37,469 nt of DNA from a virus. This document shows, piece by piece, positions 2,531 through 17,772 of this stretch. Below the pieces are notes generated by a model, which made no database searches, was not told the origin of the DNA, and saw nothing but the letters and a program-made list of their open reading frames with translations. The stretch is taken from positions 1 through 37,469 of the IMG/VR virus record IMGVR_UViG_3300022900_000030. The stretch is one strand, 5' to 3'. Position numbers and translations under genes: made by a program. Within the stretch, counting starts at the first letter, position 1. Each line of letters starts with the position of its first letter.

Positions 2531-3406
2531 ATGACTACACGTTACAACATCGACACCTGCTCAATGCTCACCGAGTTCAACGCATCTGTATGGACTGCGC
2601 GTAAGCTCGACAAGTCTGCCACCGAGGAGGTGGTGTCCAACAAGAACGCCAAGGCTAAGGATGCGGCGCGGGTCAACAAGCACTTGCTTGCGGGTCGTCC
2701 TGAGCTAGACGTTATCCAACAACTCGTTGGTCGTGCCCGTACCTATGTTTATGACAACACGTTACCGTGGTCTGACTCTGGTCTGCGTCTGCTACCGACC
2801 ATCAACTTCGAGAAGTTCGCAACCAAGATGAACGAGTTCGAGGATGAGTTCACCGATACCGTCAAGAAGTTCGTTGACATCTACCCTACGCTCATCACGG
2901 CGCAGGCTATGGCGCTTGGCGATATGTTCAAGCGCGACGACTTCCCAACGCAGAACGAGCTGCTTACCAAGTTTGCTTTCCGCGTCAACTACCTGCCTGT
3001 GCCTACATCTGGCGACTTCCGCATTGATGTGGGTAATGCCGCTACTGCCGAGTTGCGTGAGCGTCTCGAGCGTGTAACCAAGGAGCGCGTTGACTCTGCG
3101 ATGGCTGACATTCGTATGCGTTTGCGTGACCACTTGGCGCGTATGTCTGACCGACTGACTACGGACTACGTTGGGGGTGAAGCCAAGCCTCGACGTTTCC
3201 ATGACACGTTGGTGGATGGCGCGTTGGAGTTGTGCGACCTTGCCAAGGCGCTCAACGTTGTCAATGATCCTGACCTTGAGCGTAGTCGGGCTCACTTGGA
3301 GCAAGTACTTACTGGCGTCACACCAACAGACCTACGTAAGAACGAAGCTATACGACAAGATGTTAAGAAGAATGTCGATAGCATCTTGGATAAATTTACG
3401 TTCTAA
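2531..3406 (+). CDS. DUF3150-like partner of the MoxR/VWA pair
   Basis: This 291-residue, mostly helical charged protein follows the VWA gene by 18 bases and uses the same type of initiation leader (AAGGAGAATCAATCATG). No catalytic motif is visible. The middle (about residues 85-160) and C-terminal halves look like long amphipathic helices. Its size, composition and position beside a MoxR ATPase and a VWA protein match the DUF3150 family found in phages with these two genes, though the assignment rests on memory of the family and context rather than a diagnostic motif. It likely acts as a structural or adaptor component of the same complex. Confidence 0.65.
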   Translation: MTTRYNIDTCSMLTEFNASVWTARKLDKSATEEVVSNKNAKAKDAARVNKHLLAGRPELDVIQQLVGRARTYVYDNTLPWSDSGLRLLPTINFEKFATKMNEFEDEFTDTVKKFVDIYPTLITAQAMALGDMFKRDDFPTQNELLTKFAFRVNYLPVPTSGDFRIDVGNAATAELRERLERVTKERVDSAMADIRMRLRDHLARMSDRLTTDYVGGEAKPRRFHDTLVDGALELCDLAKALNVVNDPDLERSRAHLEQVLTGVTPTDLRKNEAIRQDVKKNVDSILDKFTF

Positions 3407-3430
3407 CCCTAATTGCAAAGGAGAAAAAGT

Positions 3431-3946
3431 ATGTCAATATTAGGCGATAAACTACGTGATGCCTTCAATCAGATGCAAGTCGATGATGAGGGCGTGCCGA
3501 CAGAAATCACAACAGTAACTACACAGGAGAAGCAAATGCAAAAACTATCTGCATCAGAAGCGGCGTTCGATTACGTCATGCAAACGCCCGGCTGTACTGC
3601 CACGCAAGCAGGCAGAGTCTTGGCACGAGACGGGTACAACGAGTCAACCATCAGCGCATTGATCTATCAAATGGTCAAGCAAGGGATGATCCGCAAAGAC
3701 GAGAAGACCAAACGCGTGTATGCCGCGCAGAACGCGTACACCCCGATCAAAACAAACCAACGCACCACTAAGCGTAAGTACGCACGCAAAGAGAAAGCAG
3801 GGTTAGCTGCTTTGCCGCGCGCTATGCCCACGGCGGAGAAATCAACACCGCATCCGACCATGCTGACTGCTGACTACGTCATGAAGAACATCAGTCTGGC
3901 TGAAGCCAAAGCGTTGTTCGATCAACTCAATGGATTCTTTGGATGA
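3431..3946 (+). CDS. Winged-helix DNA-binding protein
   Basis: This 171-residue protein has a helix-turn-helix/winged-helix-like core at about residues 38-98: a CTATQAGRVLAR helix, a STISALIYQMVKQGMI recognition-type helix, then a KRVYA wing strand. A basic linker (TKRKYARKEK) follows, then a short helical C-terminus. Start ATG 3431 has AAAGGAG eight bases upstream. A second in-frame ATG at 3536, before MQKLSASEAAF, has an even better ribosome site identical to those of other genes here, so a short form of 136 residues starting at the DNA-binding core is possible. A transcriptional regulatory role is inferred. The stop overlaps the next start (ATGA). Confidence 0.7.
   Translation: MSILGDKLRDAFNQMQVDDEGVPTEITTVTTQEKQMQKLSASEAAFDYVMQTPGCTATQAGRVLARDGYNESTISALIYQMVKQGMIRKDEKTKRVYAAQNAYTPIKTNQRTTKRKYARKEKAGLAALPRAMPTAEKSTPHPTMLTADYVMKNISLAEAKALFDQLNGFFG
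3525..3538 (+). promoter_or_regulatory. Internal ribosome binding site and start within the winged-helix gene
   Basis: AGGAGAAGCAAATG lies in frame inside the winged-helix gene, with ATG at 3536. The same 14 bases precede the genes starting at 9793 and 12838. Initiation here would remove the first 35 residues, which look disordered, and keep the whole DNA-binding domain. It is either a dual start or the true start of an ancestral shorter gene. Confidence 0.45.
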
Positions 3947-4275
3947 AAGTTAAAGGAGGTCAGAAACCTGCTCGACGTGTTGATGCCTACTTGTTTGCGA
4001 AGACATGGAAATTGTTTGAAGCAGGCAGGGAAGTATCAGCACACGAACTGGCAGACATCATCGACGTTTCGATGAGAACTTCTTGGTTGTGGCTAAGAAC
4101 TTTGCATGAGATGCGGTGTATCCACATTGTCGGCTGGAAGAAAGACACGATGGGCAGAGACCAAACCCCGATCTACGCAGGTGGTGACGGGTTTGATAAA
4201 CCCAAACAAGTCCAGACGCTAGCAGACAGACGCCGTAAGTATCAAGAGAAAATGAGACGTTTAAAGGAGAAGTAA
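3943..4275 (+). CDS. Small winged-helix/HTH protein
   Basis: This basic protein of 110 residues has an HTH-like segment at about 30-60 (VSAHELADIIDVSMRTS, then WLWLRTLHEM), followed by strands resembling a wing (IHIVGWKK, TPIYAGG). The C-terminal tail is strongly basic (RRRKYQEKMRRLKEK) and could bind nucleic acid. It overlaps the preceding winged-helix gene by 4 bases (ATGA), implying translational coupling, so the two may form a regulatory pair. No specific family was recognised. Confidence 0.65.
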   Translation: MKVKGGQKPARRVDAYLFAKTWKLFEAGREVSAHELADIIDVSMRTSWLWLRTLHEMRCIHIVGWKKDTMGRDQTPIYAGGDGFDKPKQVQTLADRRRKYQEKMRRLKEK

Positions 4276-4277
4276 AG

Positions 4278-4946
4278 ATGGCTATTAAAGAAAAAGATAC
4301 AGTTGTAATTCACCCCGCCAATATTCAACGTGCGGTTATTTCAATCAAAGGCACTGCTCCACTTGTGCAAAACAAGTTCAGTAAAAAAGCCAAAGACAAG
4401 ATGATGGAGGACATGGCAAAAACAAAAGCGCAGAAAGGAAAGAAGACAGACCGCGATCCGCGCAACTACGATGCGGACTTTGAGAACGCACAACACATGA
4501 GCGTAGCTGGATGGAATGGAGTGCCTTGTCCCGCGTTTCGTTCAGCCATGATTCGTGCTTGTAGTCTTATCAAAGGCGTGACCATGACAGACGCACGTAT
4601 GGCTGTGTTTGTTCTGGCTGACGGCTTCGACAAAGATGATGGCACGCCGCTTGTGAAACTCAAGGCAGCAAAGCCTGAGCGGCTTGAGAGCTTGGTCCGA
4701 CTGCAAGGTATGGGTAATCCTGCCGATGTGCGGATTCGTCCGATGTGGCGTGAGTGGGAAGCCGATCTAACTGTTGAGTTCGATGCCGACACCATCACCG
4801 CAGAGTCTGTTGTTAACTTGTTAGATAGAGCAGGTCGTCAAGTTGGTGTTGGCGAAGGGCGACCATTCAGTAAGAGTTCCAACGGTCAAGGTTGGGGCAC
4901 GTTTTCAGTAGTAGCACATTCTTTTGAGGAGACTGCAAATGGCTAA
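4278..4946 (+). CDS. Phage protein with Cas7/RAMP-like sequence features
   Basis: This 222-residue protein starts with a strand-rich segment ending in GTAPLVQNKF (about 25-34). A lysine-rich loop follows, then PAFRSAMIRA (about 85-94), then RPMWREWEADLTVEF. Near the C-terminus comes the glycine-rich run VGVGEGRP followed by GQGWGTFSV. The order of 'G-x-x-PL', 'AFR-x-A' and a G-rich loop with 'GxGxxRP...GxGxF' resembles RAMP-fold proteins such as Cas7, which bind RNA or DNA. No CRISPR array or other cas genes are present, so any role is probably phage-specific nucleic acid binding. RBS AAGGAGAAGTAAAG precedes ATG 4278. The fold call is my inference; gene reality is near certain. Confidence 0.6.
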   Translation: MAIKEKDTVVIHPANIQRAVISIKGTAPLVQNKFSKKAKDKMMEDMAKTKAQKGKKTDRDPRNYDADFENAQHMSVAGWNGVPCPAFRSAMIRACSLIKGVTMTDARMAVFVLADGFDKDDGTPLVKLKAAKPERLESLVRLQGMGNPADVRIRPMWREWEADLTVEFDADTITAESVVNLLDRAGRQVGVGEGRPFSKSSNGQGWGTFSVVAHSFEETANG

Positions 4947-5427
4947 AGCATCCAGTACAGATGTCCGAACTGCGCAGATACACGCAGAGCTATTAAACAT
5001 AGCGGCGGCGAATGGAGGTAATCTGATACCCGCTCACGTAGTAACAGCGGCTAAAAACCCTAGCTCAGTTCTGCACCGTGAGTTTGAGTGGGATGATGAC
5101 GAGGCGTCACATCTCTATCGCATAGCTCAAGCGGGTGCGTTAATACGCCGAGTCAAACTGCACATTGTGCAAGTCGGTGGGAACGCAAGGAAGATTAACA
5201 TTAACGTTACTCGTGCGTATCAAAGCCTACCATCCAGTCGCAAAACTGGTAAAGGGTACGACAGCATTGAGGACATAATGAACACCCCCGCAAAGCGCAA
5301 AGAAATGCTTGAGGGTGTTGAGAAGGAGTTACTGGCGTATCAGAAACGGTACTCAAACCTTGTTGAACTGCAAGATGTTTGGGATGCTATTGAACTGTGT
5401 GTCATTAAGAAAGCCACCGCAATCTAA
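4939..5427 (+). CDS. Conserved-type phage protein, partner of the Cas7/RAMP-like gene
   Basis: This 162-residue protein overlaps the end of the upstream gene by 8 bases (ATGGCTAA), suggesting coupled, balanced synthesis. RBS GAGGAG lies just before ATG 4939; a TTG at 4924 is less likely. Visible features are an N-terminal helical part, a segment rich in acidic residues and tryptophan (HREFEWDDDEASHLYR, about 50-65), a strand pair with INVT, and a C-terminal helix. No catalytic motif was recognised. The tight pairing suggests the two proteins act together. The gene is followed by the GG pentanucleotide array. Confidence 0.65.
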   Translation: MAKASSTDVRTAQIHAELLNIAAANGGNLIPAHVVTAAKNPSSVLHREFEWDDDEASHLYRIAQAGALIRRVKLHIVQVGGNARKININVTRAYQSLPSSRKTGKGYDSIEDIMNTPAKRKEMLEGVEKELLAYQKRYSNLVELQDVWDAIELCVIKKATAI

Positions 5428-5436
5428 CTCTGACTT

Positions 5437-5658
5437 GGCAGGCGCGGAGTCGCAAGGCTTTGTATGGCAAGGCGAGTTCTGGAGAGGCACGGCAGGTTTG
5501 GCAAGGCATGGCGAGGACAGGCTAGGCACGGCATGGCAGGTTAGGCCCGGCACGGACAGGCGAGGCACGGAGAGGCTGGGCGCGGCAAGGCAGGTAAGGC
5601 ACGGCACGGTCTGGTATGGTAACGCGCGGTAGGGCTCTGTAAGGCATGGCAGGCACGG
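5437..5658. repeat. Degenerate 5-bp-periodic GG array (GGCAN-type), about 45 units
   Basis: From about 5437 to 5658 the + strand shows a GG dinucleotide every 5 bases with only a few 4-base phase shifts and some missing steps. Units are variants such as GGCAC, GGCAT, GGCAG, GGCAA, GGCGA and GGACA. From 5500 to 5609 nearly every step is kept. It fills almost the whole gap between two rightward genes and has no convincing coding potential. The strand is strongly G-rich, so two-layer G-quadruplex formation in RNA or displaced DNA is conceivable. Function is unknown; replication or packaging sites, transcript pausing, or simple slippage expansion are options. Confidence 0.85.
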
Positions 5659-5678
5659 AATTTTTTAAAGGAGAAAGT

Positions 5679-6829: not shown

Positions 6830-7072
6830 ATGGACGGTTTCAACGGAACAAGTGCTGACGACTTACAGTACGGCGGCACACACTACAAAGACATGCCCAT
6901 CCAACCGTGGGCTGTTATGGAAGCGGTGCTGACCCGCGAGGAATTCATTGGGTTCCTAAAAGGCAACATCATCAAATACAGTTTGCGTCACGGCAGGAAA
7001 GATAGTCCTGACGCAGACAAAGCTCTGCACTACATGCAGAAGCTGAAAGAAACGTCCGGCTCAGGGTGGTGA
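6830..7072 (+). CDS. DUF3310 family protein
   Basis: This protein of 80 residues carries the pattern typical of DUF3310 phage proteins: YGGTHYKDMPIQPW at about 12-25, then a helix leading to GNIIKYSLRHG, then a D-A-x-KALHYMQKL helix. The family is common in phages of many hosts and its function is not established; a link to nucleotide metabolism has been proposed. Start ATG 6830 lies behind AAGGAGAG. It ends the block of small genes before a 187-base gap. Confidence 0.85.
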   Translation: MDGFNGTSADDLQYGGTHYKDMPIQPWAVMEAVLTREEFIGFLKGNIIKYSLRHGRKDSPDADKALHYMQKLKETSGSGW

Positions 7073-7231
7073 GCCAGATTGGTCAGCGTGTGGATCGACA
7101 TAGGCCTTGTAGATGCTCCACACACGCTGAATGAAGTTACTGTGCCACCAAGGTACTCGTGCCTCATGCAGCAGCAACTCGATCTCCACACGGCGAAGCG
7201 GGAGGGCGCCGAATCTACATTTCCCTCCCAC
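7061..7231 (-). other. Possible small leftward ORF in the 7073-7259 gap
   Basis: The gap between the DUF3310-like and VRR-NUC genes has no rightward gene. On the minus strand, a frame of 56 codons from GTG 7231 to a TGA at 7063-7061 contains protein-like text such as RVPWWHSNFIQRVWSIYKAY. There is no ATG and no clear ribosome site, and it would be antisense to the operon. The same stretch holds an inverted repeat near 7092-7138 (GTGTGGA and TCCACAC with flanking CAGC/GCTG). It could be a remnant of a gene, a structured RNA, or chance. Confidence 0.25.
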
Positions 7232-7259
7232 CCCTTAACTTGTTAACAGGAGAACAATC

Positions 7260-7550
7260 ATGGCGTCAACGCCGGAAGCACTGGTCAAGAAACAGATCAG
7301 GAAAATTTTAGATACAACAGCCACGTACTACGCCATGCCCATCGGCACAGGCTACGGCAACAGCGGGGTGCCAGACTTCCTTTGTTGTAGGAACGGTCAT
7401 TTCTTAGCCATAGAAGCCAAAGCAGGCAAAGGCAAAACAACCGCGCTACAAGATGCACACCTCGAGCGTATCAAAGCCGCAGGCGGCACAGCCGTCGTTA
7501 TCAACGAGCAGAACATCAAAGAGCTGCCTGACATACTGGACAAGTTATGA
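7260..7550 (+). CDS. VRR-NUC domain nuclease
   Basis: This 96-residue single-domain protein has the PD-(D/E)XK-type core of VRR-NUC enzymes: GVPD (36-39) with Asp39 and EAK (52-54), then a helix with a conserved-type glutamine and the late strand AVVIN. Such phage enzymes are usually small stand-alone DNA nucleases, probably resolving branched replication or recombination intermediates. Start ATG 7260 follows AGGAGAACAATC. Its end overlaps the next gene by 4 bases (ATGA). Position directly upstream of the DNA polymerase supports a role in replication or recombination. Confidence 0.85.
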   Translation: MASTPEALVKKQIRKILDTTATYYAMPIGTGYGNSGVPDFLCCRNGHFLAIEAKAGKGKTTALQDAHLERIKAAGGTAVVINEQNIKELPDILDKL

Positions 7551-7819
7551 AAATGTTTGAGATCATCGAGCGATCAATAGCGAACTTTGACTCGCTGTCG
7601 GAAGACGACAAAGAACGCTTCGCTGGTATGTGTGCCATCTTAGCCGCGTGCATAACCGAGCACCAAAAAGCTGTGTGGTTGATCGACCGAGAAGACACGG
7701 TGTCTGTAATGGCAGTCAATGCCAACGAACTAGAAATAGCGCAGCTCATTGGCGAGGGCTACGAGCTATTCAACTGCGCCGTGATGGAAGACGCGCCACC
7801 AAAGGAGATGATGAATTGA
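7547..7819 (+). CDS. Small acidic hypothetical protein before DNA polymerase
   Basis: This acidic, helical protein of 90 residues (MKMFEIIERSIANFDSL...) overlaps the VRR-NUC gene (ATGA) and the polymerase start (TTGA), so it is coupled to both. It contains an aliphatic helix around GMCAILAACI and no catalytic motif. Its 3' end supplies the ribosome site AAAGGAGATG for the polymerase. No family was recognised. Confidence 0.6.
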   Translation: MKMFEIIERSIANFDSLSEDDKERFAGMCAILAACITEHQKAVWLIDREDTVSVMAVNANELEIAQLIGEGYELFNCAVMEDAPPKEMMN

Positions 7820-9783
7820 GTAAGTTATTTGACCAAATCATAACTGTTGACTTCGAGACGTACTGGGATAGCAAGTCCTTTACGTTGAGCAAGATAACTA
7901 CGGAGGAGTACATACGCGATGAAAAATTTAGAGACTTCGGAGCTTGCTTCCATGTATACGGAAGCGACGAACCAATTGAATGGGTTAGAGGATGCGACAT
8001 ACCTGAGTACGTTTCTGGAATCGATTGGGGACGAACCGCAGTGCTTGCGCACAATGCACAATTCGATGTTTCAATACTGGGATGGCGGTATGGCGTATCC
8101 CCGGCATTCATATTCGATACCCTATCAATGGCGCGAGCTTTACGCGGTGTGGAGGTTGGCAACTCCCTCGCGAAATTGGCAGAAGATTTCGGACTGCCCG
8201 CTAAAGGCAAAGCCGTTTATTCGACTAATGGGCTTGCCGACATTTCTCCAGAGATGGAAAGAGAGCTCGCTGAGTACTGCAAACATGATGTGTATTTGTG
8301 TGAAGAAATCTTCACGCGTTTATCGGTGGGGTACCCTAGATCGGAGCTACGACTGATCGACATGACGCTCAAGATGTACACCGAGCCCATGCTTAAGTTG
8401 GATAGTGCAATGCTTGAGCAGGCGCTGGTTGATGAGAAGGCACGCCGTGAGGGTTTACTGCAACGTCTTGGTGTAGAAGAAAAGCAGCTGGCATCCAACC
8501 CGATGTTTGCTGACATCCTGATCAATATGGGTGTGCCCCCACCAAAGAAAGTCAGTAAGACAACAGGCAAAGAAACGCTGGCACTTGCCAAGAACGACGC
8601 CCTGTTCCAAGCCCTGCTCAATGGAGACAACGAGGACGTAGCGGCGCTGTGTGAGGCTCGCCTAGCGGTGAAGTCAACAACCGAACGTACCCGTGCCCAA
8701 CGGTTCCTCGACATCAGTAAGCGCGGACCTCTGCCTGTGCCTCTGAGCTACTACGGAGCGGCAACTGGGCGATGGACGGCATCCAAGGGCAGCGCCATCA
8801 ACATGCAGAACCTTAAGCGCGGCTCGTTCCTACGCAAAGCCATCATGGCACCAGAGGGGCATCAGCTAGTTGTTGGTGACTTGTCTCAGATCGAGCCTCG
8901 TGTTCTGGCATGGCTGTCGGACTATGAAGACATGCTTATGATCTTTAAGCAAGGCGGCGACCCGTACGCGGCGTTTGGTGCACAGATGTTCAACATTCCG
9001 GGGATGACCAAAGAGAGCCACCCTGATCTGCGGCAGTCTGCTAAGTCGGCGCTTCTGGGCTGTGGCTACGGCTTGGGCTGGGCATCCTTTGCGGCGCAGT
9101 TACTGACCGGCTTCCTTGGCGCACCGCCAGTTATGTACACGAAAGACTTTGCCAAGAAGCTGGGCGTCGATCGGGATTACGTGGAGAAGTTTGTCAACAA
9201 CGAAGAAAACGTTGCGAAGCTGGAAGCCATACCGCACACCTGCTCTATTGATGATTTGTTAACACATGCCGTAGCGGCAAAGAAGATCATCGACATTTAC
9301 CGGAGCACCGCATGGCCTGTCGTATCGTTCTGGAATATGTGCGCAGAGCTGCTTGTTAAATCGCTTGCAGGCGGCGAAGAAGTGGTGTATAAATGTATCA
9401 CTTTCAGAAAAGAGGAGATCGTATTGCCCAACGGCATGCGGCTCTTGTATCCGAATTTACGACAAGTTAAGGATGAAAACGGTAGGAGCCAGTGGGTATA
9501 CGGGCCAGACGCTACCAAGCTCTATCCGGGCAAGATAACGAACAACATTGTTCAAGGAACAGCGCGTATCGTTATGACGGATGGGATGCTCCGAGTGGGG
9601 AAAAGATACCCCATCAAGGGCACGGTGCACGACGAGTTAATCGCCGTTGTACCAGACGAAGAAGTGTCTGACGCGAAGACTTGGGTCTTGGCGCAGATGA
9701 CTATGGAGCCGAAGTATATGCCGGGCATACCTTTGGACGCTGACGGTGGCGCACACCGCCGATATGGATTAGCTAAAAACTAG
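7816..9783 (+). CDS. Family A DNA polymerase with 3'-5' exonuclease
   Basis: This 655-residue replicative DNA polymerase has an N-terminal DnaQ-type exonuclease: VDFET with Asp12/Glu14, AHNAQFD around residue 80 and YCKHDVYLCEE near residue 155. The C-terminal family A polymerase has motif A GDLSQIEPR with Asp355, motif B with Arg406, Lys410 and Tyr418 (KSALLGCGYG), and motif C VHDE with Asp606/Glu607. All catalytic residues are present. No N-terminal 5'-nuclease is visible. I place the start at TTG 7816, eight bases after GGAG (7804-7807) and overlapping the upstream stop; the longer upstream frame is antisense-like arginine-rich text and lacks an RBS. With the primase-helicase and the acidic-tailed protein it forms the core of the phage replisome. 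Confidence 0.95.
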   Translation: MSKLFDQIITVDFETYWDSKSFTLSKITTEEYIRDEKFRDFGACFHVYGSDEPIEWVRGCDIPEYVSGIDWGRTAVLAHNAQFDVSILGWRYGVSPAFIFDTLSMARALRGVEVGNSLAKLAEDFGLPAKGKAVYSTNGLADISPEMERELAEYCKHDVYLCEEIFTRLSVGYPRSELRLIDMTLKMYTEPMLKLDSAMLEQALVDEKARREGLLQRLGVEEKQLASNPMFADILINMGVPPPKKVSKTTGKETLALAKNDALFQALLNGDNEDVAALCEARLAVKSTTERTRAQRFLDISKRGPLPVPLSYYGAATGRWTASKGSAINMQNLKRGSFLRKAIMAPEGHQLVVGDLSQIEPRVLAWLSDYEDMLMIFKQGGDPYAAFGAQMFNIPGMTKESHPDLRQSAKSALLGCGYGLGWASFAAQLLTGFLGAPPVMYTKDFAKKLGVDRDYVEKFVNNEENVAKLEAIPHTCSIDDLLTHAVAAKKIIDIYRSTAWPVVSFWNMCAELLVKSLAGGEEVVYKCITFRKEEIVLPNGMRLLYPNLRQVKDENGRSQWVYGPDATKLYPGKITNNIVQGTARIVMTDGMLRVGKRYPIKGTVHDELIAVVPDEEVSDAKTWVLAQMTMEPKYMPGIPLDADGGAHRRYGLAKN

Positions 9784-9792
9784 GAGAAGCAA

Positions 9793-10080
9793 ATGTTATT
9801 ACCAAAAACTATTGAGGTTGGCAAATCAATATACACAATCAATCAGCCAAAGGAGATTACCAAATGTCTAGGTCAGATTGATTACACGGAAAAGGTTATT
9901 GATGTGGCAACCCACGCTCTGAATTACAAACTGGCAGACGGAGAACGTAGCGAGACGTTCTGGCACGAGCTAACCCACGCCATACTGCACGACATGAACC
10001 ACTCCCTGACGCGTGACGAGAAGTTTGTAACCGCCTTTGCTCGCCGTCTCAATGACGCCATCCTTTCTGCGGAGTTCTGA
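9793..10080 (+). CDS. Small HExxH metallopeptidase-like protein
   Basis: This protein of 95 residues carries FWHELTHAILHDM with HELTH at 58-62, the zinc-binding HExxH motif, plus further His and Glu residues downstream. The layout resembles compact ImmA/IrrE- or SprT-like minimal metallopeptidases. In phages such proteins could cleave a repressor or a host factor, but no substrate can be inferred. It follows the polymerase by 9 bases with RBS AGGAGAAGCAA, and its stop overlaps the next start by one base (TGATG). Confidence 0.75.
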   Translation: MLLPKTIEVGKSIYTINQPKEITKCLGQIDYTEKVIDVATHALNYKLADGERSETFWHELTHAILHDMNHSLTRDEKFVTAFARRLNDAILSAEF

Positions 10081-10745
10081 TGAAAAAACCTGCATGGAGC
10101 CATAGCTCCCTAAAAGACTTTGAGGGGTGCGCTAGGCGCTACCATGAGGTCAAAGTTCTGAAGAACTACCCGTTCCAAGAGACCGAGGCAACCCGTTATG
10201 GAAACCAAGTACACGAGTCCTTGGAGTTCTACATTCGGGACGGCAAAGAGATACCGCCAGAGCACAGCCAGTTTAAGCCTGTTGTTGACAAGCTGTTAGC
10301 AAAACCGGGACGTAAGCTAGCAGAGCAGGAGATGGCGCTCACCGTAGACCTGAAGCCTACCGACTGGAAAGCCAAGGACGTGTGGGTACGGGGTATAGCC
10401 GATATGCTGATCATTGACGACGACAACCTGACGGCGTGGGTGGTGGACTGGAAGACAGGGAACGACAGGTATCCAGATCGTGACCAGCTAATCCTGATGT
10501 CCATCATGGTGTTTGAGCACTACCCCCATATCCGCAAGGTCAACTCAGCCCTGTTGTTTATTGTCAAGAACAGCATGGTCAAGATGCAGATGACACGCGA
10601 TCAAAAAGACGCGGCATGGTGGCGTTATCGTGAGCGAACCGCTAGACTAGAGGCGTGCTTTGAGAACAATGTTTGGAACCCTAACCAAACGCCCCTGTGT
10701 AAGTGGTGTCAAGTTAAGGGCTGTGAATTTAACCCGCATCATTAA
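10080..10745 (+). CDS. PD-(D/E)XK nuclease with four-cysteine (Fe-S type) layout, Cas4/AddB-like
   Basis: This 221-residue protein has the RecB-family nuclease core: RYGNQVHESLEFY helix (about 40-52) with conserved His, Asp108 in GIADM, and DWK (123-125). A cysteine at residue 17 (FEGCARRYH) and three near the C-terminus (207, 210, 215 in CKWCQVKGC) reproduce the arrangement that binds a 4Fe-4S cluster in Cas4 and AddB nucleases. It probably processes DNA ends or single strands during replication and recombination. No cas genes are nearby, so a phage recombination role is more likely than adaptation. Start and stop codons overlap neighbours closely. Confidence 0.85.
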   Translation: MKKPAWSHSSLKDFEGCARRYHEVKVLKNYPFQETEATRYGNQVHESLEFYIRDGKEIPPEHSQFKPVVDKLLAKPGRKLAEQEMALTVDLKPTDWKAKDVWVRGIADMLIIDDDNLTAWVVDWKTGNDRYPDRDQLILMSIMVFEHYPHIRKVNSALLFIVKNSMVKMQMTRDQKDAAWWRYRERTARLEACFENNVWNPNQTPLCKWCQVKGCEFNPHH

Positions 10746-10754
10746 GGACTAAAA

Positions 10755-11021
10755 ATGCCTTACGTAAACAAACCCCGTCCCTATAAAAAAGAGTACGAAC
10801 AGTACGATGGGACACCCGCAGTTAAAAAGAAACGCGCTGCTCGTAACAAAGCACGCCGCATGATGGAGAGAGAAGGGCTCGTTCATAAAGGAGATGGCAA
10901 AGATGTCGATCACAAACGGCCCCTTTCAAAAGGCGGCGCCTCAACTAGAAGCAATATTCGCGTTAAGAGCGCGACTGCAAACCGATCATATAAAAGGAAT
11001 GCAGACGGCTCCGTCAAATGA
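10755..11021 (+). CDS. HNH endonuclease-like protein
   Basis: This very basic protein of 88 residues has DVDHKRPLSKGG (about 51-62) followed by TRSNIRVKSATANRSY. This is the Asp-His ... Asn ... (H/N) pattern of small HNH nucleases, with the usual third His replaced by Asn. The N-terminal half is Lys/Arg-rich and could bind DNA. RBS AAGGACT lies before ATG 10755. The last 119 bases are shared with another gene in a different frame. It may be a nicking enzyme or a free-standing homing-type nuclease. Confidence 0.8.
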   Translation: MPYVNKPRPYKKEYEQYDGTPAVKKKRAARNKARRMMEREGLVHKGDGKDVDHKRPLSKGGASTRSNIRVKSATANRSYKRNADGSVK

Positions 11022-11205
11022 TGACGTGCCGATTGACGTACTAGCTGATCTGTGGCTGGTACGTTTCGGAGATGCGTGGGTAGATCAAGACACCATCAAT
11101 CAGGATGACTTTTTCTATGACGCATTCATCAGACTTAGGCAAAGAGGTTACATACAACAACATTTTTTGACGGACCGCGCAAAGTACGTGTGCCGCAAAC
11201 CATAA
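10903..11205 (+). CDS. Hypothetical protein overlapping the HNH gene
   Basis: This protein of 100 residues starts inside the HNH gene in another frame. ATG 10903 lies nine bases after AAAGGAG (10887-10893), a strong internal ribosome site; ATG 10894 sits too close to it. The part beyond the HNH stop (from about residue 41, VPIDVLADLWLVRFGD) is clearly protein-like, with aromatic and acidic helices; the overlapping part is less typical. No domain was recognised. It ends 12 bases before the helicase start. Confidence 0.65.
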   Translation: MSITNGPFQKAAPQLEAIFALRARLQTDHIKGMQTAPSNDDVPIDVLADLWLVRFGDAWVDQDTINQDDFFYDAFIRLRQRGYIQQHFLTDRAKYVCRKP

Positions 11206-11216
11206 AGAGAGAAGCA

Positions 11217-12776
11217 ATGCAGATCGTAAATGACAAGGCGCTAGTCTTGCGGACTCGCAATCCGTCTAAGTACAGCGTCATACCAAAGCACAGAATAGTT
11301 GCGGAGAAAGACGGCATCTATGATATTGCCGTTTACTGGGGCTTGGACGAGACCCGAGTACTTCGCAACCTTGGCGTGAAGCATGCGCCATCACCAATCA
11401 CAAGACGCTACGATTGGCCCGGGAAGTTTACGCCAATGGCTCACCAAAAAGAGACCTCGGCTTTCCTGACGCTATATCGTCGTGCGTTTTGTTTCAATGA
11501 CCCCGGTACAGGCAAGACGCTGTCTGCGTTGTGGGCGGCTGACTACTTGATGCAACGTGGCGAGGTTCGCCGTGTGCTGATTCTGTGTCCGCTGTCTATC
11601 ATGCACAGCGCGTGGATGGGCGACATAAACAGTAGCGTGATTCATCGCTCGGCTATTGTTGCCCACCATGCGCAAGCTGCGCGGCGCATCGAAATGATTC
11701 AGGGTGACTACGAGATCGTGATTGCCAACTACGATGGGCTGAACTTGATTGCAAACGAGATCAACAATGACGGTCGTTTTGACTTGGTTATCGTTGACGA
11801 GGCTAACGCATACAAGAACCCATCTACGCGGCGATGGAAGGCGTTGGCGTCAATCATTAAGCCCGAGACCTATCTGTGGATGATGACGGGTACTCCCGCA
11901 TCGCAGTCGCCTGTTGATGCGTACGGCTTGGCAAAGCTCGTGAATCCCGGCGGGGTGCCTAAGTTCTACACGGCGTGGCGTGACAAGGTTATGTACAAAG
12001 TTACGCAGTTCAAGTGGGTGCCAAAAGCAACCGCTCGTGATACTGTGTTCGACGCACTTCAACCAGCAATACGTTTTAGTAAAGCCGAGTGTCTTGACTT
12101 GCCGCCAGTTATCACCATGACGCGCGAGGTGCCGATGACTTCGCAACAAACCAAGTACTACAACATGCTCAAAGAGCAGATGCTGGTCAAGGCGGCGGGT
12201 GAAGTGATCAGTGCTGTCAACGCTGGGGTTGCGGTTAGCAAGCTGCTACAAATCTCGTGCGGCGCCGCATACACGGATGACAAAGAGGTTGTCGAGTTTG
12301 ATGCCGCGCCGCGCCTCAATGTGTTGGGGGAGATTTTGGAAGAGACCAACCGCAAGGTTATTATCTTTGCGTTGTTCCGCTCCAGCATTGACACAATCAC
12401 CCAACACCTGACCAAGCAGGGCGTGGGGGTAGCGCAGATTCATGGCGATGTGTCGGCGAGCAAACGTGGTCAGATCATCCGCGACTTCCAGACAACCGAC
12501 ACGATACGCGTGCTTGTCATGCAACCTCAAGCAACCGCACACGGCATCACTTTGACCGCCGCTGATACTGTTGTTTTCTTTGGTCCGCTGATGAGTGTTG
12601 AACAGTACATCCAATGTATTGCACGCGCGGATCGTAAGGGGCAAGACTCAGACAAAGTCACCGTGGTGCATATAGAATCAAGTCCGCTTGAGAAGAAATT
12701 GTTCAAGGCGATGAGTAGCAAAGTTGATGACAACTCGTTACTCGTTAGCTTGTTCGATAGTGAAATAAAAAATTAA
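11217..12776 (+). CDS. SNF2-like superfamily 2 helicase
   Basis: This 519-residue protein has both RecA-like lobes. Lobe 1 has Walker A NDPGTGKT (94-101), a DEAN variant of the DEAD/H box (194-197) and TGTP (motif III). Lobe 2 has IIFALFRSSID, IHGDVS, and motif VI ARADRKGQ (469-476), typical of SNF2/SWI2-like helicases and translocases. Phage members act in replication, recombination or clearing proteins from DNA. I prefer ATG 11217 (GAGAGAAGCA upstream) to the in-frame ATG at 11190, which would overlap the previous gene. It is the last gene before the second promoter. Confidence 0.9.
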   Translation: MQIVNDKALVLRTRNPSKYSVIPKHRIVAEKDGIYDIAVYWGLDETRVLRNLGVKHAPSPITRRYDWPGKFTPMAHQKETSAFLTLYRRAFCFNDPGTGKTLSALWAADYLMQRGEVRRVLILCPLSIMHSAWMGDINSSVIHRSAIVAHHAQAARRIEMIQGDYEIVIANYDGLNLIANEINNDGRFDLVIVDEANAYKNPSTRRWKALASIIKPETYLWMMTGTPASQSPVDAYGLAKLVNPGGVPKFYTAWRDKVMYKVTQFKWVPKATARDTVFDALQPAIRFSKAECLDLPPVITMTREVPMTSQQTKYYNMLKEQMLVKAAGEVISAVNAGVAVSKLLQISCGAAYTDDKEVVEFDAAPRLNVLGEILEETNRKVIIFALFRSSIDTITQHLTKQGVGVAQIHGDVSASKRGQIIRDFQTTDTIRVLVMQPQATAHGITLTAADTVVFFGPLMSVEQYIQCIARADRKGQDSDKVTVVHIESSPLEKKLFKAMSSKVDDNSLLVSLFDSEIKN

Positions 12777-12783
12777 AAACAGT

Positions 12784-12811
12784 TTGCACGAATACAGAAA
12801 ACCTGTATGAT
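12784..12811 (+). promoter_or_regulatory. Second sigma70-like rightward promoter
   Basis: TTGCAC (12784-12789) and TATGAT (12806-12811) are separated by 16 bases in an AT-rich gap after the helicase stop. A 6-bp inverted repeat, ATACAG and CTGTAT with loop AAAAC (12792-12808), lies in the spacer and reaches into the -10 box. The 16-bp palindrome shared with the first promoter begins at the last base of the -10 box. It should drive the SSB-like and primase genes. Confidence 0.6.
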
Positions 12812-12826
12812 GTCAAACATTAGACA
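12811..12826. promoter_or_regulatory. Palindromic operator candidate, copy 2
   Basis: TGTCAAACATTAGACA matches the site at 94-109 at 15 of 16 positions. Here it covers the predicted transcription start instead of the -35 region, and runs directly into the Shine-Dalgarno sequence AAGGAG of the gene at 12838. A bound protein would block initiation from either position. No third copy was found by eye. Confidence 0.5.
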
Positions 12827-12837
12827 AGGAGAAGCAA

Positions 12838-13254
12838 ATGACAGAAGAAGCAGAATCCGCAGAAATACCAATGGATAAGCTGGCGCGGGTGTATCGAAAG
12901 ATACGCGACGAGAAGCAACGCCTGAGCCGCGAGTACGAAGGTAAGATTGCAGAACTAGAAGGCAAACTAGATCAACTCAAAATTGCCATGAAAGATCAGA
13001 TGCTGCGCTTGGGTACAACATCCATGCGTACAAATAGCGGTACCGTATCGTTGGCTAAACACACAAAGTACAGCACTAACGATTGGGATAGCTTTAAACA
13101 ATTCATCATGGAACATGACGCCGTAGACTTGCTTGAGAAGCGCGTTGCGCAGATCAACATGGCTACGTTCCTTGAGGAAAACCCCGGCGTCGTTCCCCCC
13201 GGATTGAACTCGTTGACTGAGTATTCGATTTCTGTCCGTAAGCCCTCAAACTAA
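12838..13254 (+). CDS. Coiled-coil phage protein
   Basis: This protein of 138 residues has an N-terminal acidic start and a long helix (about 12-60, containing KLARVYRKIRDEKQRLSREY and heptad Leu/Ile spacing), then a compact C-terminal part with SMRTNSGTVSLAK and DLLEKRVAQINMATFLEENP. The layout (coiled coil plus small alpha/beta domain) loosely resembles phage Gam-like host nuclease inhibitors, but no diagnostic motif supports that. It is first in the second rightward unit and sits directly before the SSB-like gene, which suggests a DNA replication or recombination role. RBS AAGGAGAAGCAA. Confidence 0.6.
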   Translation: MTEEAESAEIPMDKLARVYRKIRDEKQRLSREYEGKIAELEGKLDQLKIAMKDQMLRLGTTSMRTNSGTVSLAKHTKYSTNDWDSFKQFIMEHDAVDLLEKRVAQINMATFLEENPGVVPPGLNSLTEYSISVRKPSN

Positions 13255-13265
13255 GGAGAAGTGAA

Positions 13266-14210
13266 ATGAGTGAAGTTGTTCCTTTTAACCCATCAAAATT
13301 GCCTGCGTTCGCAAAGAACCGTGGCGAACTGTCTGACCTTGCCAAGGCGCTAGCTGGTGGCTCTGGTGGTGGCGGTGGTGGCAAGCGCATCTCTATCAAA
13401 GGTGGTGTGTTCCGTCTGCTGGCTTCTGGTAAAGAAGTTGCTGCAATTGACGAGCGCTATCTTGACGTAGTGATTGTGAATGCCGCACCCAAAGTCAGCC
13501 GTGTGTTCTACGCCAAGAGCTACGATGCGGCGACTGTCTCTGCGCCTGACTGCTGGTCGCCCGATGGTGAGAAGCCCTCCCCTGATGCAGAGAACCGCCA
13601 AGCGTCACGTTGCGCTGAGTGTGTCCAGAACATCGCCGGATCGGGTCAGGGTAATAGCCGCGCTTGCCGTTACCAGCAACGCATTGCCGTAGTGCTCGCC
13701 AACGATATGGAAGGCGATGTCATGCAGTTAACTCTGCCAGCTACGAGCGTGTTCGGTAAGGAGAACGGCGATGAGCGTCCCTTGCAGGCATACGCCCGTT
13801 ATCTGGTCGCGCAGAACATCGACCCCTCTGAACTCGTTACCCGTATGAAGTTCGATACAAAGTCAGAGAGCCCCAAGCTGTTCTTCAAGCCTGTGCGTTG
13901 GCTGACTGATGACGAGCGCCCCGGCATCGTAGATCAAAGCAAATCAGACGCCGCTATTCGGGCAATCACTATGACGGTCGCCAAGCAGGATGGTGTAGTA
14001 TCTAAGCCCTTGGCTATCGAAGGTACCCGTCCAGCCCCCGTAGAGGAAGAAGCCCCCGCACCCAAGGCTAAGAAAGCCAAAGCTGCCACCGTAGAGGTGG
14101 AGGACGATGACGACGAGCCAACCGTGCGTAAGGAAACCAAGAAGCCAAGCGCCGTGCCGACTGCTAAGGCATCCTTAGCCGACATGGTCGATGACTGGGA
14201 CGACGAATAA
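13266..14210 (+). CDS. Putative single-stranded DNA-binding protein with acidic tail
   Basis: This 314-residue protein begins with a flexible part containing a Gly/Ser run (31-39). A strand-rich core follows (about 40-230), holding cysteines in CAEC and CRYQQR that could bind zinc. The C-terminal segment is a long Pro/Ala/Lys/Glu-rich linker ending DMVDDWDDE. An acidic tip with a hydrophobic residue after a disordered linker is the hallmark of SSB-type proteins such as T7 gp2.5 and bacterial SSB, and a zinc site is known in T4 gp32. It sits between the coiled-coil protein and the primase-helicase, as expected for a replisome SSB. The fold itself was not recognised, so the call rests on architecture and context. 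Confidence 0.65.
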   Translation: MSEVVPFNPSKLPAFAKNRGELSDLAKALAGGSGGGGGGKRISIKGGVFRLLASGKEVAAIDERYLDVVIVNAAPKVSRVFYAKSYDAATVSAPDCWSPDGEKPSPDAENRQASRCAECVQNIAGSGQGNSRACRYQQRIAVVLANDMEGDVMQLTLPATSVFGKENGDERPLQAYARYLVAQNIDPSELVTRMKFDTKSESPKLFFKPVRWLTDDERPGIVDQSKSDAAIRAITMTVAKQDGVVSKPLAIEGTRPAPVEEEAPAPKAKKAKAATVEVEDDDDEPTVRKETKKPSAVPTAKASLADMVDDWDDE

Positions 14211-14239
14211 GGAGAAAGGGGGCTTCGGCCCCCGTTACG
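14211..14239 (+). promoter_or_regulatory. Shine-Dalgarno and C(UUCG)G hairpin preceding the HTH gene
   Basis: AAGGAG (14209-14214) lies 25 bases before ATG 14240, too far for normal use. Between them is a perfect 6-bp hairpin, GGGGGC and GCCCCC closed by the extra-stable UUCG tetraloop (14218-14233). Folding it removes 16 bases and brings the Shine-Dalgarno to about 9 bases from the ATG. The same hairpin could instead reduce expression or slow transcription; no U run follows, so it is not a normal terminator. Confidence 0.6.
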
Positions 14240-14518
14240 ATGGCTTACTCACAACAAACTATACAAGCAGTTAAGAAGGCGCCTAAGACGCTGGGTAACC
14301 AGCTCGGGAGGTGGGCGGTGCATCTGGAGTTTCCTGTGGCAAAGATCGCAGACTTGTCTGGAGCTACCCGGCAATCTGTCTACAACTGGTTTCATGGCGG
14401 GGAGGTGTTTGTTGCCTACCGTCCAGTCGTTAAGACACTTCTTAGCATATTTCAAACATGTACAACCGCCGATGAGGCTTGGAGAAAAGCATGCAAGGCA
14501 TTCAACCGCGCACTCTGA
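14240..14518 (+). CDS. HTH DNA-binding protein (Cro/XRE-like)
   Basis: This basic protein of 92 residues has a helix-turn-helix at about 28-50: FPVAKIADLSGATRQSVYNWF, where a helix, a Gly turn and a recognition helix ending in YNWF follow the XRE/Cro pattern. The remaining C-terminal helices could dimerise. It is a candidate for the protein that binds the shared 16-bp palindrome, since the gene lies in the unit controlled by copy 2. It overlaps the next gene by 28 bases. Its start is unusual because a UUCG hairpin separates it from the ribosome site. Confidence 0.7.
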   Translation: MAYSQQTIQAVKKAPKTLGNQLGRWAVHLEFPVAKIADLSGATRQSVYNWFHGGEVFVAYRPVVKTLLSIFQTCTTADEAWRKACKAFNRAL

Positions 14519-14670
14519 CAAACGAAGAACTAGTCAACTACGCAACGATTCAAGGCTTCAAAAACCTCCCGCCAGAGTGGGTAGAAGAGCTGGTTATTAG
14601 ATTGGCACTGACCCCAGACCAACCCCGTCAAGTAAAAGACACGCACACAAAAGACCTGTTCGACAACTAA
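14491..14670 (+). CDS. Small acidic hypothetical protein
   Basis: This protein of 59 residues starts at ATG 14491, seven bases after GGAG (14481-14484), inside the 3' end of the HTH gene. It is helical (LTNEELVNYATIQGF, LPPEWVEELVIRLAL) with a polar tail. It has no recognisable domain. Its size and place between the HTH and primase genes suggest a small regulatory or adaptor protein. Confidence 0.6.
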   Translation: MQGIQPRTLTNEELVNYATIQGFKNLPPEWVEELVIRLALTPDQPRQVKDTHTKDLFDN

Positions 14671-14684
14671 TCAAAGGGACTGCC

Positions 14685-17624
14685 ATGACGCCGCTTGAGT
14701 TTTTAGCGGAGGTTCTGCCGTCCCCGGGTAACGGGCACTACTGCGTAGCGGAACTGACAATAAGAAAAGAACATCAATTTCTGGAGAACATAAATGAAGC
14801 ACAACCCCACATAGACCGCTGGCTTGATAAAAAAGCCGACATATTCTTTGCGCTGGCTACGTTCAAAGAGCCGGGCAAGCGAGAGGCTGTCAACGCCAAG
14901 GTGATCAAATCCCTGTTCATCGACATGGACGGGTACACCACAAAGAAGGCGGCAGCTCTGGCACTCGATGCGTTCCTTAAGAAGACTGGACTTGACGTGT
15001 TTGGTGCGCCGTGGGTGGTGGCTTCTGGTGGCGGTATTCACTGCTACTGGCCCCTGACCCAAGAGCTAGAGATAGATGTTTGGAAACCTGTTGCTGAGAA
15101 GTTAAAGCGGCTGTGCGTCCAAGAGGGTATGAAGATCGACATGGCGGTAACGGCTGATGCCGCCCGTGTTCTGCGTATCCCCGGCACAACCAACTTTAAG
15201 AAGAAATACGGCACCCCTCGTCCCGTTAAGCTGATGTCTACGGCAGGGCGGTTTGAGTTTGAGGACTTGGCTAACTGTATAGATTCACAGTTGCGGGAAG
15301 AGTTTAAGCCGCTCCCCAATCGCATGGTGGATATTGGCGGTACTCGCCCCAAGCGAGACCCCAACGCTACGCAGGTCAAGTTGCTGGACAACGCCGATAC
15401 CAGCTTCGAGCAAATCTGGGACAAGACAGTCGCCGGTACTGGGTGCGGACAGCTTCAGGACTACGTAGAGAACGCCCAAGAGGACGGCAAAGAGCCGATC
15501 TGGCGAGCGCTCCTATCGTGGACTAAGTGCTGCTCAGACGGACCCGGGTATGCGGTCTGGTTAAGCGATCTGCACCCGTATGACCACGAGCGGATGCACC
15601 AGAAGATCATAGATATTAAAGGTCCGTATTCCTGCGAGAAGCTCGATAGCGAGAACCCCGGCATCTGTGGTACCTGTCCGCACCGTGGCAAGATTACCAA
15701 CCCCCTGATTCTGGGGCGGGTGGTTCGGACTGACGACTCTGAGAAACAAATTGTCCTAAACCACGAACCCTCGCCACCAGAGCCGTTGGATGAGATTGAG
15801 GACGCAATCGACGTTGCCCCTCCGGCGGCACAGCAACAAGTGGTCACCCGCCCCCACGCACCCCGTGGGTTCACTTATGGGCAGAACGGCGGCGTGTACA
15901 AGGAGGTAGAGATTGAAGACGCACAGGGTAACAAGACCAAGAAGCAGACCCCCATCCTGCCGTACGACTTGTTTGTGGTGGATATTCTGAAACAAGAGGG
16001 GGAGCACATCGTTCACCTAGCAGCGAACCGTCCCGATGGGGCGGTAACGGTCATCCTTCCACAAAAAGCGGTGGTCAGCAAAGACGAAACCGTCAAAGTC
16101 TTGGCGTCTCAAAACATCATTGCGTCTTTTGGGAAAGGCAATGACAACAATTTATTTGATTACGTTCGGGGAGCAGTCGAAGACGCATCTATGACAAAGA
16201 AAGCAATCACAGTACCCACCCAGTGTGGTTGGCAAGAAGACGGCTCGTTCGTCTATAACAACCGAGTATTTACCAAAGACGGGCGCGAGACCACGGTGCC
16301 AATGCCCGGGCTGGAGAACATCAACCGCAACACCAACCACGCAGGTAGCCTAGAGAACTGGCGCAAACCGTGGGACTTGCTGGTTCAGCGAAACATGAAC
16401 ACCATGTTGGCAATTGCGCTGGACTCGTTCGGGTCTTCCCTAATGCGTTTCACAGACTATGACGGCTTTGTCTGGCACATCGGCTCAACCGAGTCGGGTA
16501 CGGGTAAGTCGTTGACGTTGGAGTTAAAGGCGGGCGTGTGGGGGCATCCGATCAAGTACCGTACCAGTAAGAGTACCTCCCCCGTAGCCATGCAAAACCG
16601 CTTGGGGCTGCTCAACAGTATGCCCCTGTTGATTGACGAAATCACCAGCAAAAGCCGCAAGGACATGGAGTGGGCGCCGGAGTTTATCTTCGACGTTTCA
16701 GAAGCGCAGGGTAAGGACAGGATGGAGAGCGGCGCCAACAAAGAGCGCCTCAACAACAGCACATGGTCCACGAGCTGTACCCTGACCTCCAACGTCCATT
16801 TATCCGACTATATGTCTGGTGCGCGGCAACACAGTTCCAACGGGGAACTGCTGCGTATGCTGGAGTGGACGCCCAACGTGGCTCTGGAGTGGGCTGATAG
16901 CGACCGGGTTATCTTGAAAAATGTGCGGCAGAACTACGGCGTAGCTGGCGAGGCGTGGGTTCGCTGGATAGTTACCCATCAAGATATTGTCCAAGAAGTC
17001 ATGGATAAAGTCCACGCCAAGCTCAAGACGGTTATGGAATTTGTGGATGACGAGCGCTACTGGCATGCCGCGTGTACCTGCTCTGTGGCATCTGCCATCC
17101 TGACGGGTCCGAAGTACGCCAACCTGCTGAACGTGCCAGTCAAGAACATCGTGGAAGCTCTGCACAACCTAGTTAAGAAAGCCCGTGGCGTCCTGCGTAA
17201 GAATGTGCGCACCGCTGAGGATGTCCTGAACGCCTACACCCGGGAGAACTACGGCAACTTTATCGTCATCCGTAAGGGTAGCGACAAGGGTATTCTGGCT
17301 GGCTGGGGTAGCGGTGAGACCATTGACGCCTCAATCACTCGCAGTAAGGTGTTAGGACGGGTCGAGCATGAGGTCGCCGCCGGGGGGTATGTCGAATACT
17401 TCTTGGAAGAACAGCTTCTGAAACAGCACTGCGTGGCTATGAGCTTTGGCTATTCAGATTTCAAGAAGCAGCTTGAGGAGGCGTTTAAAGGCAGCATCCA
17501 CTACATCAAGAAGGACATGCTGGCGCGGACCAAGGGCCCGAACATGCGCGTAAACGTCATGCACATAACCCGTAAGATCGAAGAACTAGATGGTAATTCA
17601 CTACCCGTGGCAGACTTTGAATAA
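14685..17624 (+). CDS. Primase-helicase fusion (AEP/RepB-like primase plus DUF927-like helicase)
   Basis: This 979-residue protein is the largest in the rightward arm. The N-terminal part (about 1-230) looks like an archaeo-eukaryotic primase: IDMDG with Asp80 and Asp82, SGGGIHCYW with His119, and RVLRIPGTTNFK. A cysteine cluster follows (about 285-340: KCCSD, CEKL, CGTCPHRG), possibly a zinc site. The C-terminal half is a P-loop helicase with Walker A GSTESGTGKS (600-609) and Walker B LLIDE with Asp651/Glu652, typical of DUF927-type phage helicases. It would prime and unwind for the family A polymerase. Weak RBS AAAGGGA precedes ATG 14685. The gene overlaps the next small gene by 35 bases. 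Confidence 0.9.
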   Translation: MTPLEFLAEVLPSPGNGHYCVAELTIRKEHQFLENINEAQPHIDRWLDKKADIFFALATFKEPGKREAVNAKVIKSLFIDMDGYTTKKAAALALDAFLKKTGLDVFGAPWVVASGGGIHCYWPLTQELEIDVWKPVAEKLKRLCVQEGMKIDMAVTADAARVLRIPGTTNFKKKYGTPRPVKLMSTAGRFEFEDLANCIDSQLREEFKPLPNRMVDIGGTRPKRDPNATQVKLLDNADTSFEQIWDKTVAGTGCGQLQDYVENAQEDGKEPIWRALLSWTKCCSDGPGYAVWLSDLHPYDHERMHQKIIDIKGPYSCEKLDSENPGICGTCPHRGKITNPLILGRVVRTDDSEKQIVLNHEPSPPEPLDEIEDAIDVAPPAAQQQVVTRPHAPRGFTYGQNGGVYKEVEIEDAQGNKTKKQTPILPYDLFVVDILKQEGEHIVHLAANRPDGAVTVILPQKAVVSKDETVKVLASQNIIASFGKGNDNNLFDYVRGAVEDASMTKKAITVPTQCGWQEDGSFVYNNRVFTKDGRETTVPMPGLENINRNTNHAGSLENWRKPWDLLVQRNMNTMLAIALDSFGSSLMRFTDYDGFVWHIGSTESGTGKSLTLELKAGVWGHPIKYRTSKSTSPVAMQNRLGLLNSMPLLIDEITSKSRKDMEWAPEFIFDVSEAQGKDRMESGANKERLNNSTWSTSCTLTSNVHLSDYMSGARQHSSNGELLRMLEWTPNVALEWADSDRVILKNVRQNYGVAGEAWVRWIVTHQDIVQEVMDKVHAKLKTVMEFVDDERYWHAACTCSVASAILTGPKYANLLNVPVKNIVEALHNLVKKARGVLRKNVRTAEDVLNAYTRENYGNFIVIRKGSDKGILAGWGSGETIDASITRSKVLGRVEHEVAAGGYVEYFLEEQLLKQHCVAMSFGYSDFKKQLEEAFKGSIHYIKKDMLARTKGPNMRVNVMHITRKIEELDGNSLPVADFE

Positions 17625-17772
17625 GGGTGAGGGATTCTTTGTCCCCGGGCTAGACGTGGAGAAGATCAGGGAGCGCGGACTCAAAGCCGCGCTCCCATTT
17701 CGATATAGAGTAAAAGCCATCCCCGGCATCAAGGATGGCAAACTCGGCGTCTGGTTTATTCGATTGCCCTGA
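17590..17772 (+). CDS. Small phage protein at the end of the rightward arm
   Basis: This protein of 60 residues has the clear phage-like text YPWQTLNKGEGFFVPGLD and a C-terminal strand-rich part (LGVWFIRLP). It starts at ATG 17590 within the primase gene; TTG 17617 is an alternative. It ends inside the converging giant gene, with 17 bases of tail-to-tail overlap. A 10-bp GC-rich hairpin (17669-17696) lies within it. Function unknown. Confidence 0.65.
   Translation: MVIHYPWQTLNKGEGFFVPGLDVEKIRERGLKAALPFRYRVKAIPGIKDGKLGVWFIRLP
17669..17696. terminator. Strong hairpin at the convergent junction
   Basis: GGGAGCGCGG (17669-17678) and CCGCGCTCCC (17687-17696) form a perfect 10-bp stem with loop ACTCAAAG. 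It lies just after the primase stop and about 60 bases beyond the stop of the leftward giant gene, so it is placed to end both transcripts. No U tract follows on either strand (only ATTT on the +), so termination would be inefficient or factor-assisted, or the stem protects 3' ends. Confidence 0.5.

Follow-up and report, generated by a model that had tools for sequence, protein, structure and literature searches.

A five-base GGYNN array beside a Vipr homologue in a viral genome very probably encodes the guide RNAs of a VIPR system

Viral Interference Programmable Repeat (VIPR) systems are phage-encoded and recognize DNA in a CRISPR-like manner, as described in a preprint first posted in April 2026 (PMC13142463). 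Their vrRNAs consist of 9 to 16 YNNGG units, the NN bases of which recognize double-stranded DNA with one base skipped, and competing phages are repressed (PMC13142463). Features expected of a VIPR locus include a Vipr gene of the ancestral RAMP kind, whose product has an RRM/RAMP fold, a glycine-rich loop, and a thumb domain that contacts the RNA. Seven types have been distinguished, accessory genes are named vap1-6, and the forms of array include separate tailed vrRNAs, staggered overlapping arrays, ribozyme-interspersed arrays and single vrRNAs (PMC13142463). The "staggered arrays with overlapping vrRNAs" are mentioned with reference to fig. S18 (PMC13142463).

Here, we analyzed a viral contig of 37,469 nucleotides (IMG/VR record IMGVR_UViG_3300022900_000030, the whole of which is referred to as the window herein) that carries a strikingly periodic intergenic segment. 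A preliminary description had likened this segment to no named phage element. That statement is now outdated, since the segment very probably represents a VIPR vrRNA array (PMC13142463). Our observations concern the anatomy of the array, the homology and fold of Vipr, its conserved partner, the linkage of arrays to vipr, and the presence or absence of the whole cassette in relatives. We read the window as a VIPR locus because of the Vipr homology, the conserved partner gene, the array-vipr linkage, the shared strand, and the existence of a close relative that lacks the cassette. The features are collected in Table 1.

Table 1. Features of the putative VIPR locus, in window coordinates.
Feature	Position	Strand	Description	Basis
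Small HTH-like ORF	3943..4275	+	upstream of vipr; probably outside the VIPR system	
vipr gene	4278..4946	+	222 aa, phrog_4652, predicted RAMP/Cas7-like; C-terminal glycine-rich loop GVGEGRPFSKSSNGQGWGTF	
Accessory (vap-like) gene	4939..5427	+	162 aa, phrog_15946; start overlaps vipr stop (ATGGCTAA); stop just 5' of array	
vrRNA array (very probable)	5437..5658	+	four putative guide modules, GGYNN units, GGCA delimiters	exact decode and periodicity
Module 1	5437..5490	+	GGCA and 10 units; NN = GC GT AA TT AT AA GA CT GA AC	
Module 2	5491..5534	+	GGCA and 8 units; NN = TT AA AT GA CA TA AC AT	
Module 3	5535..5588	+	GGCA and 10 units; NN = TA CC AC CA GA AC GA TG GC AA	
Module 4	5589..5647	+	GGCA and 11 units; NN = AA AC AC CT AT AA GC AG TC AA AT	
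Array end	5648..5658	+	terminal GGCA GGCAC GG; homology break with relative L012 at about 5660	

The array can be decoded letter for letter as four modules, each opened by GGCA, followed by a last GGCA and GGCACGG. It starts 10 bases after a stop codon, and downstream of it lie a T run and the next gene's ribosome site. The five-base spacing of GG reported in the preliminary description proved to be real: the lag-5 autocorrelation of G within the array was 0.635, compared to a mean of 0.00 (sd 0.07, maximum 0.215) for 2000 dinucleotide shuffles. This periodicity was unique in the window, where the second-best stretch reached a lag-5 value of 0.24. Apart from a few drop-outs, the spacing is interrupted by five 4-base steps. 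These had been noted before as occasional shifts; the steps themselves are there but in all five the sequence reads GGCA and then GG; they resemble borders between modules rather than occasional slips. The modules between GGCA words hold 10, 8, 10, and 11 units, the smallest of which is just below the published range of 9 to 16. Of the 39 five-base units, 35 have G at position 1, 38 have G at position 2, and 34 have C or T at position 3, while positions 4 and 5 are variable with an entropy of 1.8 bits each. Departures from GGY comprise four units without the first G, one without the second, and five with A at position 3; the imperfect units include CGCAA, TGTAT, and GTTCT in module 1 and CGCGC and TGTAA in module 4. 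With GGY constant and NN variable, the array is a periodic pattern and not a copied repeat, as had been recognized. It is also non-coding, as judged earlier, with stops in all three forward frames and in two of the three reverse frames. A search of the array for identical direct repeats with unique spacers, as in a CRISPR array, found only five-base units with variable NN. An Rfam search gave no match, the array RNA folded no better than shuffled sequence (z 0.50), nothing like the separate structured 3' tails of SUSP1 was seen in the array, and a scan for sigma-70 promoters upstream found none.

The open reading frame at 4278-4946 is, by sequence similarity, a homologue of the Vipr of Escherichia phage SUSP1. 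When its product was compared with the PDB by phmmer, the single match was SUSP1 Vipr (36pp, E 1.8e-5), and a family profile built from 48 homologues matched 36pp at E 5.9e-38. A homologue encoded between two GGCNN arrays on another viral contig matches the same structure at E 9e-27. The AF2 model of Vipr, made with 47 homologues, has a mean pLDDT of 90.3 and predicts a Cas7/Csm3-like fold (RRM/RAMP with a glycine-rich loop). All Foldseek matches of this model at E<=0.001 were to CRISPR effector-complex subunits, led by Csm3/Cas7 (best E 7e-6), and a VIA comparison with Csm3 folds gave Z 12.6 over residues 14-222 at ∼8-14% sequence identity. The glycines G186, G190, and G207 of the C-terminal loop are invariant in the 47 homologues. 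In PHROG, phrog_4652 carries no assigned function, and a Pfam search gave no match above the cut-off for vipr or its partner gene.

The accessory protein was likewise modelled with confidence (pLDDT 89.9). Foldseek found no significant match for this model in the PDB, and a comparison with SUSP1 vap1 gave no significant sequence similarity; homologues in phrog_15946 adjoin vipr in many loci. The two genes and the array lie on one strand as a single cassette and are probably co-transcribed. The HTH-like ORF at 3943-4275 probably does not belong to the system, because a diverged homologue is present in L012, the relative without the cassette. Elsewhere in the window, an AAA-type ATPase gene adjoins one for a VWA/DUF2201 putative metallopeptidase protein (146-2512), and similar DNA occurs in relative L053, which has no VIPR cassette. 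The minus strand holds an open reading frame of 2745 aa at 17756-25993.

To follow the array beyond the window, viral contigs were scanned at the DNA level only for eight GGCNN units in a row, which yielded at least 120 stretches, and Vipr was sought in these with a profile grown from the window's own. Among the matches listed, a Vipr homologue was encoded in 85 of 120 stretches and the accessory protein in 25 of 120. The 35 stretches with no detected vipr may lie at contig ends, have a Vipr too distant to detect, or be repeats of another kind. By comparison, only two of 80 control loci, chosen for a related DNA polymerase, contained vipr or the accessory gene, and both were identical to the window. 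Of the arrays near vipr, 161 of 162 lay on the vipr strand, as expected for a co-directional RNA. Vipr-like genes with GGCNN arrays were also found in Cyanophage Cy-LDV1 and in bacterial genome contigs, and the trio of array, vipr, and vap recurs in Mycobacterium phages of the genus Cheoctovirus. A PADLOC search gave no match. Relatives in which the gap encodes a conserved protein, which the preliminary description had named as a refutation, were not encountered; depending on the genome, the mycobacteriophage arrays are annotated as small hypothetical ORFs or not at all. VIPR-like loci lie at 1482-1734 in L007, 1501-1734 in L008, and 1461-1807 in L009, all Cheoctovirus, and the records do not name VIPR. 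GenBank calls the arrays small hypothetical proteins in DRBy19 (gp51), BobaPhett (gp51), ByChance (gp39), and Pippy (gp47), and the start of Philus gp52 falls within the array.

In a tree of 49 Vipr sequences, the window groups with L114 and L135 (support 100/99) inside a larger group that stands well apart from the SUSP1 clade. The arrays differ in style between the two sides. On the window side (27 counted loci), 34 of 41 arrays have 4-base steps, with GGCA in 151 cases and a median of 37 GG, as against 11 of 25 arrays with 4-base steps and a median of 16 GG in the SUSP1 clade. The longest array that we saw, at 1959-3547 in L152, spans 1.6 kb beside vipr with ∼300 GG and ∼35 GGCA-delimited modules. 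Delimiters other than GGCA also occur: CGCA is used in the array at 5698-6062 of L120, and the array at 14631-14818 of L135, which has one of the Viprs most closely related to that of the window, repeats GGTAACGCCGACAAGGCAAGGCAT as delimiter, perhaps a tail or processing signal. In L101 (1313-2037) and L131 (654-1406), short arrays of ∼13-18 units flank vipr on either side, and each stops just 5' of the next ribosome binding site.

Comparison with the phage contig L012 shows the cassette as a unit of presence or absence. The two genomes share 99% identity on the left (3060-3953) and ∼97% on the right over replication genes (6842-14777), and where the window has 3954-5660, L012 has 296 other bases. 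It has no vipr, vap, or array and carries a diverged version of the upstream HTH-like gene; the right homology break falls on the last bases of the array. When unit numbers were compared between relatives, as had been proposed, nine Cheoctovirus phages were found to differ by gain or loss of whole modules and of whole five-base units.

Searches for DNA targets returned nothing above chance. With the last unit of each module removed, modules 3 and 4 had no exact one-base-skip match in IMG/VR, and module 1 had three, a number near chance. All three matches to module 1 lie in frame, the skipped base coinciding with the wobble position of the codons, which is itself expected by chance because the pattern reads codon-like (A-V-K/N-F/L-I/M-K/N-D/E-L-D/E). 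When 250 modules were pooled and tested locally against the collected loci, with skips of 0-3 and shuffled-unit controls, no skip rule gave an excess; this is a weak test given that the target set consists mostly of unrelated phages. An exact target scan of IMG/VR with two mycobacteriophage modules found none, and one module of a Bradyrhizobium prophage array had a single match with one mismatch among 196 genomes, again near chance.

These searches, together with the imperfect units in modules 1 and 4, would fit a relic of a VIPR system in which proteins and array persist and the array has decayed and lost its guiding function. We regard this as unlikely, though it is the alternative that fares best: vipr and vap are both intact and their products are modelled with high confidence, and the long arrays of relatives hold similar imperfect units. 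A site acting as DNA, such as a replication origin, a packaging site, or an array bound by a phage protein recognizing GG at half-turn intervals of the helix, would suit a segment that is intergenic, strongly periodic, and G-rich. However, the array moves with vipr and not with the phage, being absent from the relative with the 99% identical left flank and present beside vipr in unrelated phages, and a double-stranded site needs no bias such as 161 of 162 for one strand. We therefore give the origin and packaging proposals, and this whole class of explanation, very little weight. Equally improbable is a two-layer G-quadruplex or an R-loop that regulates the downstream genes. While 28 overlapping sets of four GG with loops of 1-4 bases can be drawn, there is no set of G3 tracts and just two GGG runs, a quadruplex loop does not require the C or T found in third position in 34 of 39 units, and the array is linked to Vipr. 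Of the earlier guesses, those of an R-loop or a protein array came loosely near an RNA-guided, DNA-binding, oligomeric system; the proposals of a G-quadruplex, an origin, a packaging site, and a slippage repeat find no support. Least credible is a functionless slippage microsatellite, for although whole five-base units are gained and lost among mycobacteriophages, copy slippage does not keep GGY while varying NN, nor does it account for the linkage to vipr.

Returning to the vrRNA array, its transcription, the formation of an RNP, the one-base skip, and repression are modelled on the published system (PMC13142463). By this analogy, the array RNA would be the source of vrRNA and would load Vipr. 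The GGY triplets would seat a row of Cas7-like Vipr subunits on the RNA, and the NN dinucleotide in every unit would stay free for target reading. Each GGCA-delimited module of 8-11 units would make one guide of 16-22 reading bases, and we hold this division into guides, for the clade of the window, with moderate confidence. The guide bases would pair with double-stranded DNA, skipping one base between dinucleotides according to the SUSP1 rule (PMC13142463), which is adopted from the preprint because our target searches found nothing above chance. The complex would then bind and repress a competing phage, prophage, or satellite. We tentatively suggest, as a possibility that may well prove wrong, that the tail-less continuous array of this clade uses the frame break of GGCA, in place of GGCNN, as guide-end punctuation and works with its own accessory, phrog_15946. 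Such punctuation would act by halting Vipr polymerization or by marking a cut. The staggered arrays of fig. S18 in the preprint may already be the GGCA-punctuated form. VIPR itself is already published; what may be novel here is the proposed use of the GGCA frame break to punctuate arrays without tails.

VIPR has been proposed as RNA-guided DNA recognition older than CRISPR, and the locus offers a compact, fully decoded candidate example that belongs to a different clade from the experimentally studied one and has GGCA as a simple candidate rule for where a guide ends. Near-identical phages with and without the cassette are available for comparison. In addition, culturable relatives that infect Mycobacterium smegmatis share the partner protein and the array style, such that guide boundaries and targets are testable there.

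Among known systems, Class 1 CRISPR-Cas shares with the window the RAMP fold predicted for Vipr, which is that of its backbone subunit Csm3/Cas7, but the window array has no neighbouring CRISPR repeats, cas genes, or adaptation module. Closer is the type II VIPR of SUSP1 (PDB 36pp; KT454805), which likewise has a Vipr homologue, an accessory gene directly behind it, and tandem five-base GGY/NN units in the neighbouring gaps on the same strand. In SUSP1 there are four individual vrRNAs (∼100 nt, PMC13142463), each composed largely of GGT units and ending in a structured 3' tail, whereas the window has one continuous array of mostly GGC units with GGCA delimiters and no visible tail. Since its Vipr belongs to another clade, its accessory protein lacks significant similarity to vap1, and its array lacks the tail, the window locus appears, as far as sequence can tell, to fall outside type II. 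The Cheoctovirus loci (Donkeykong, DRBy19, Brocalys, and others) differ in having the array ahead of vipr, where the window has it behind vap, and in a Vipr that is ∼32% identical; they resemble the window in all three components, with a Vipr in phrog_4652, a partner in phrog_15946, and a GGCA-delimited GGCNN array.
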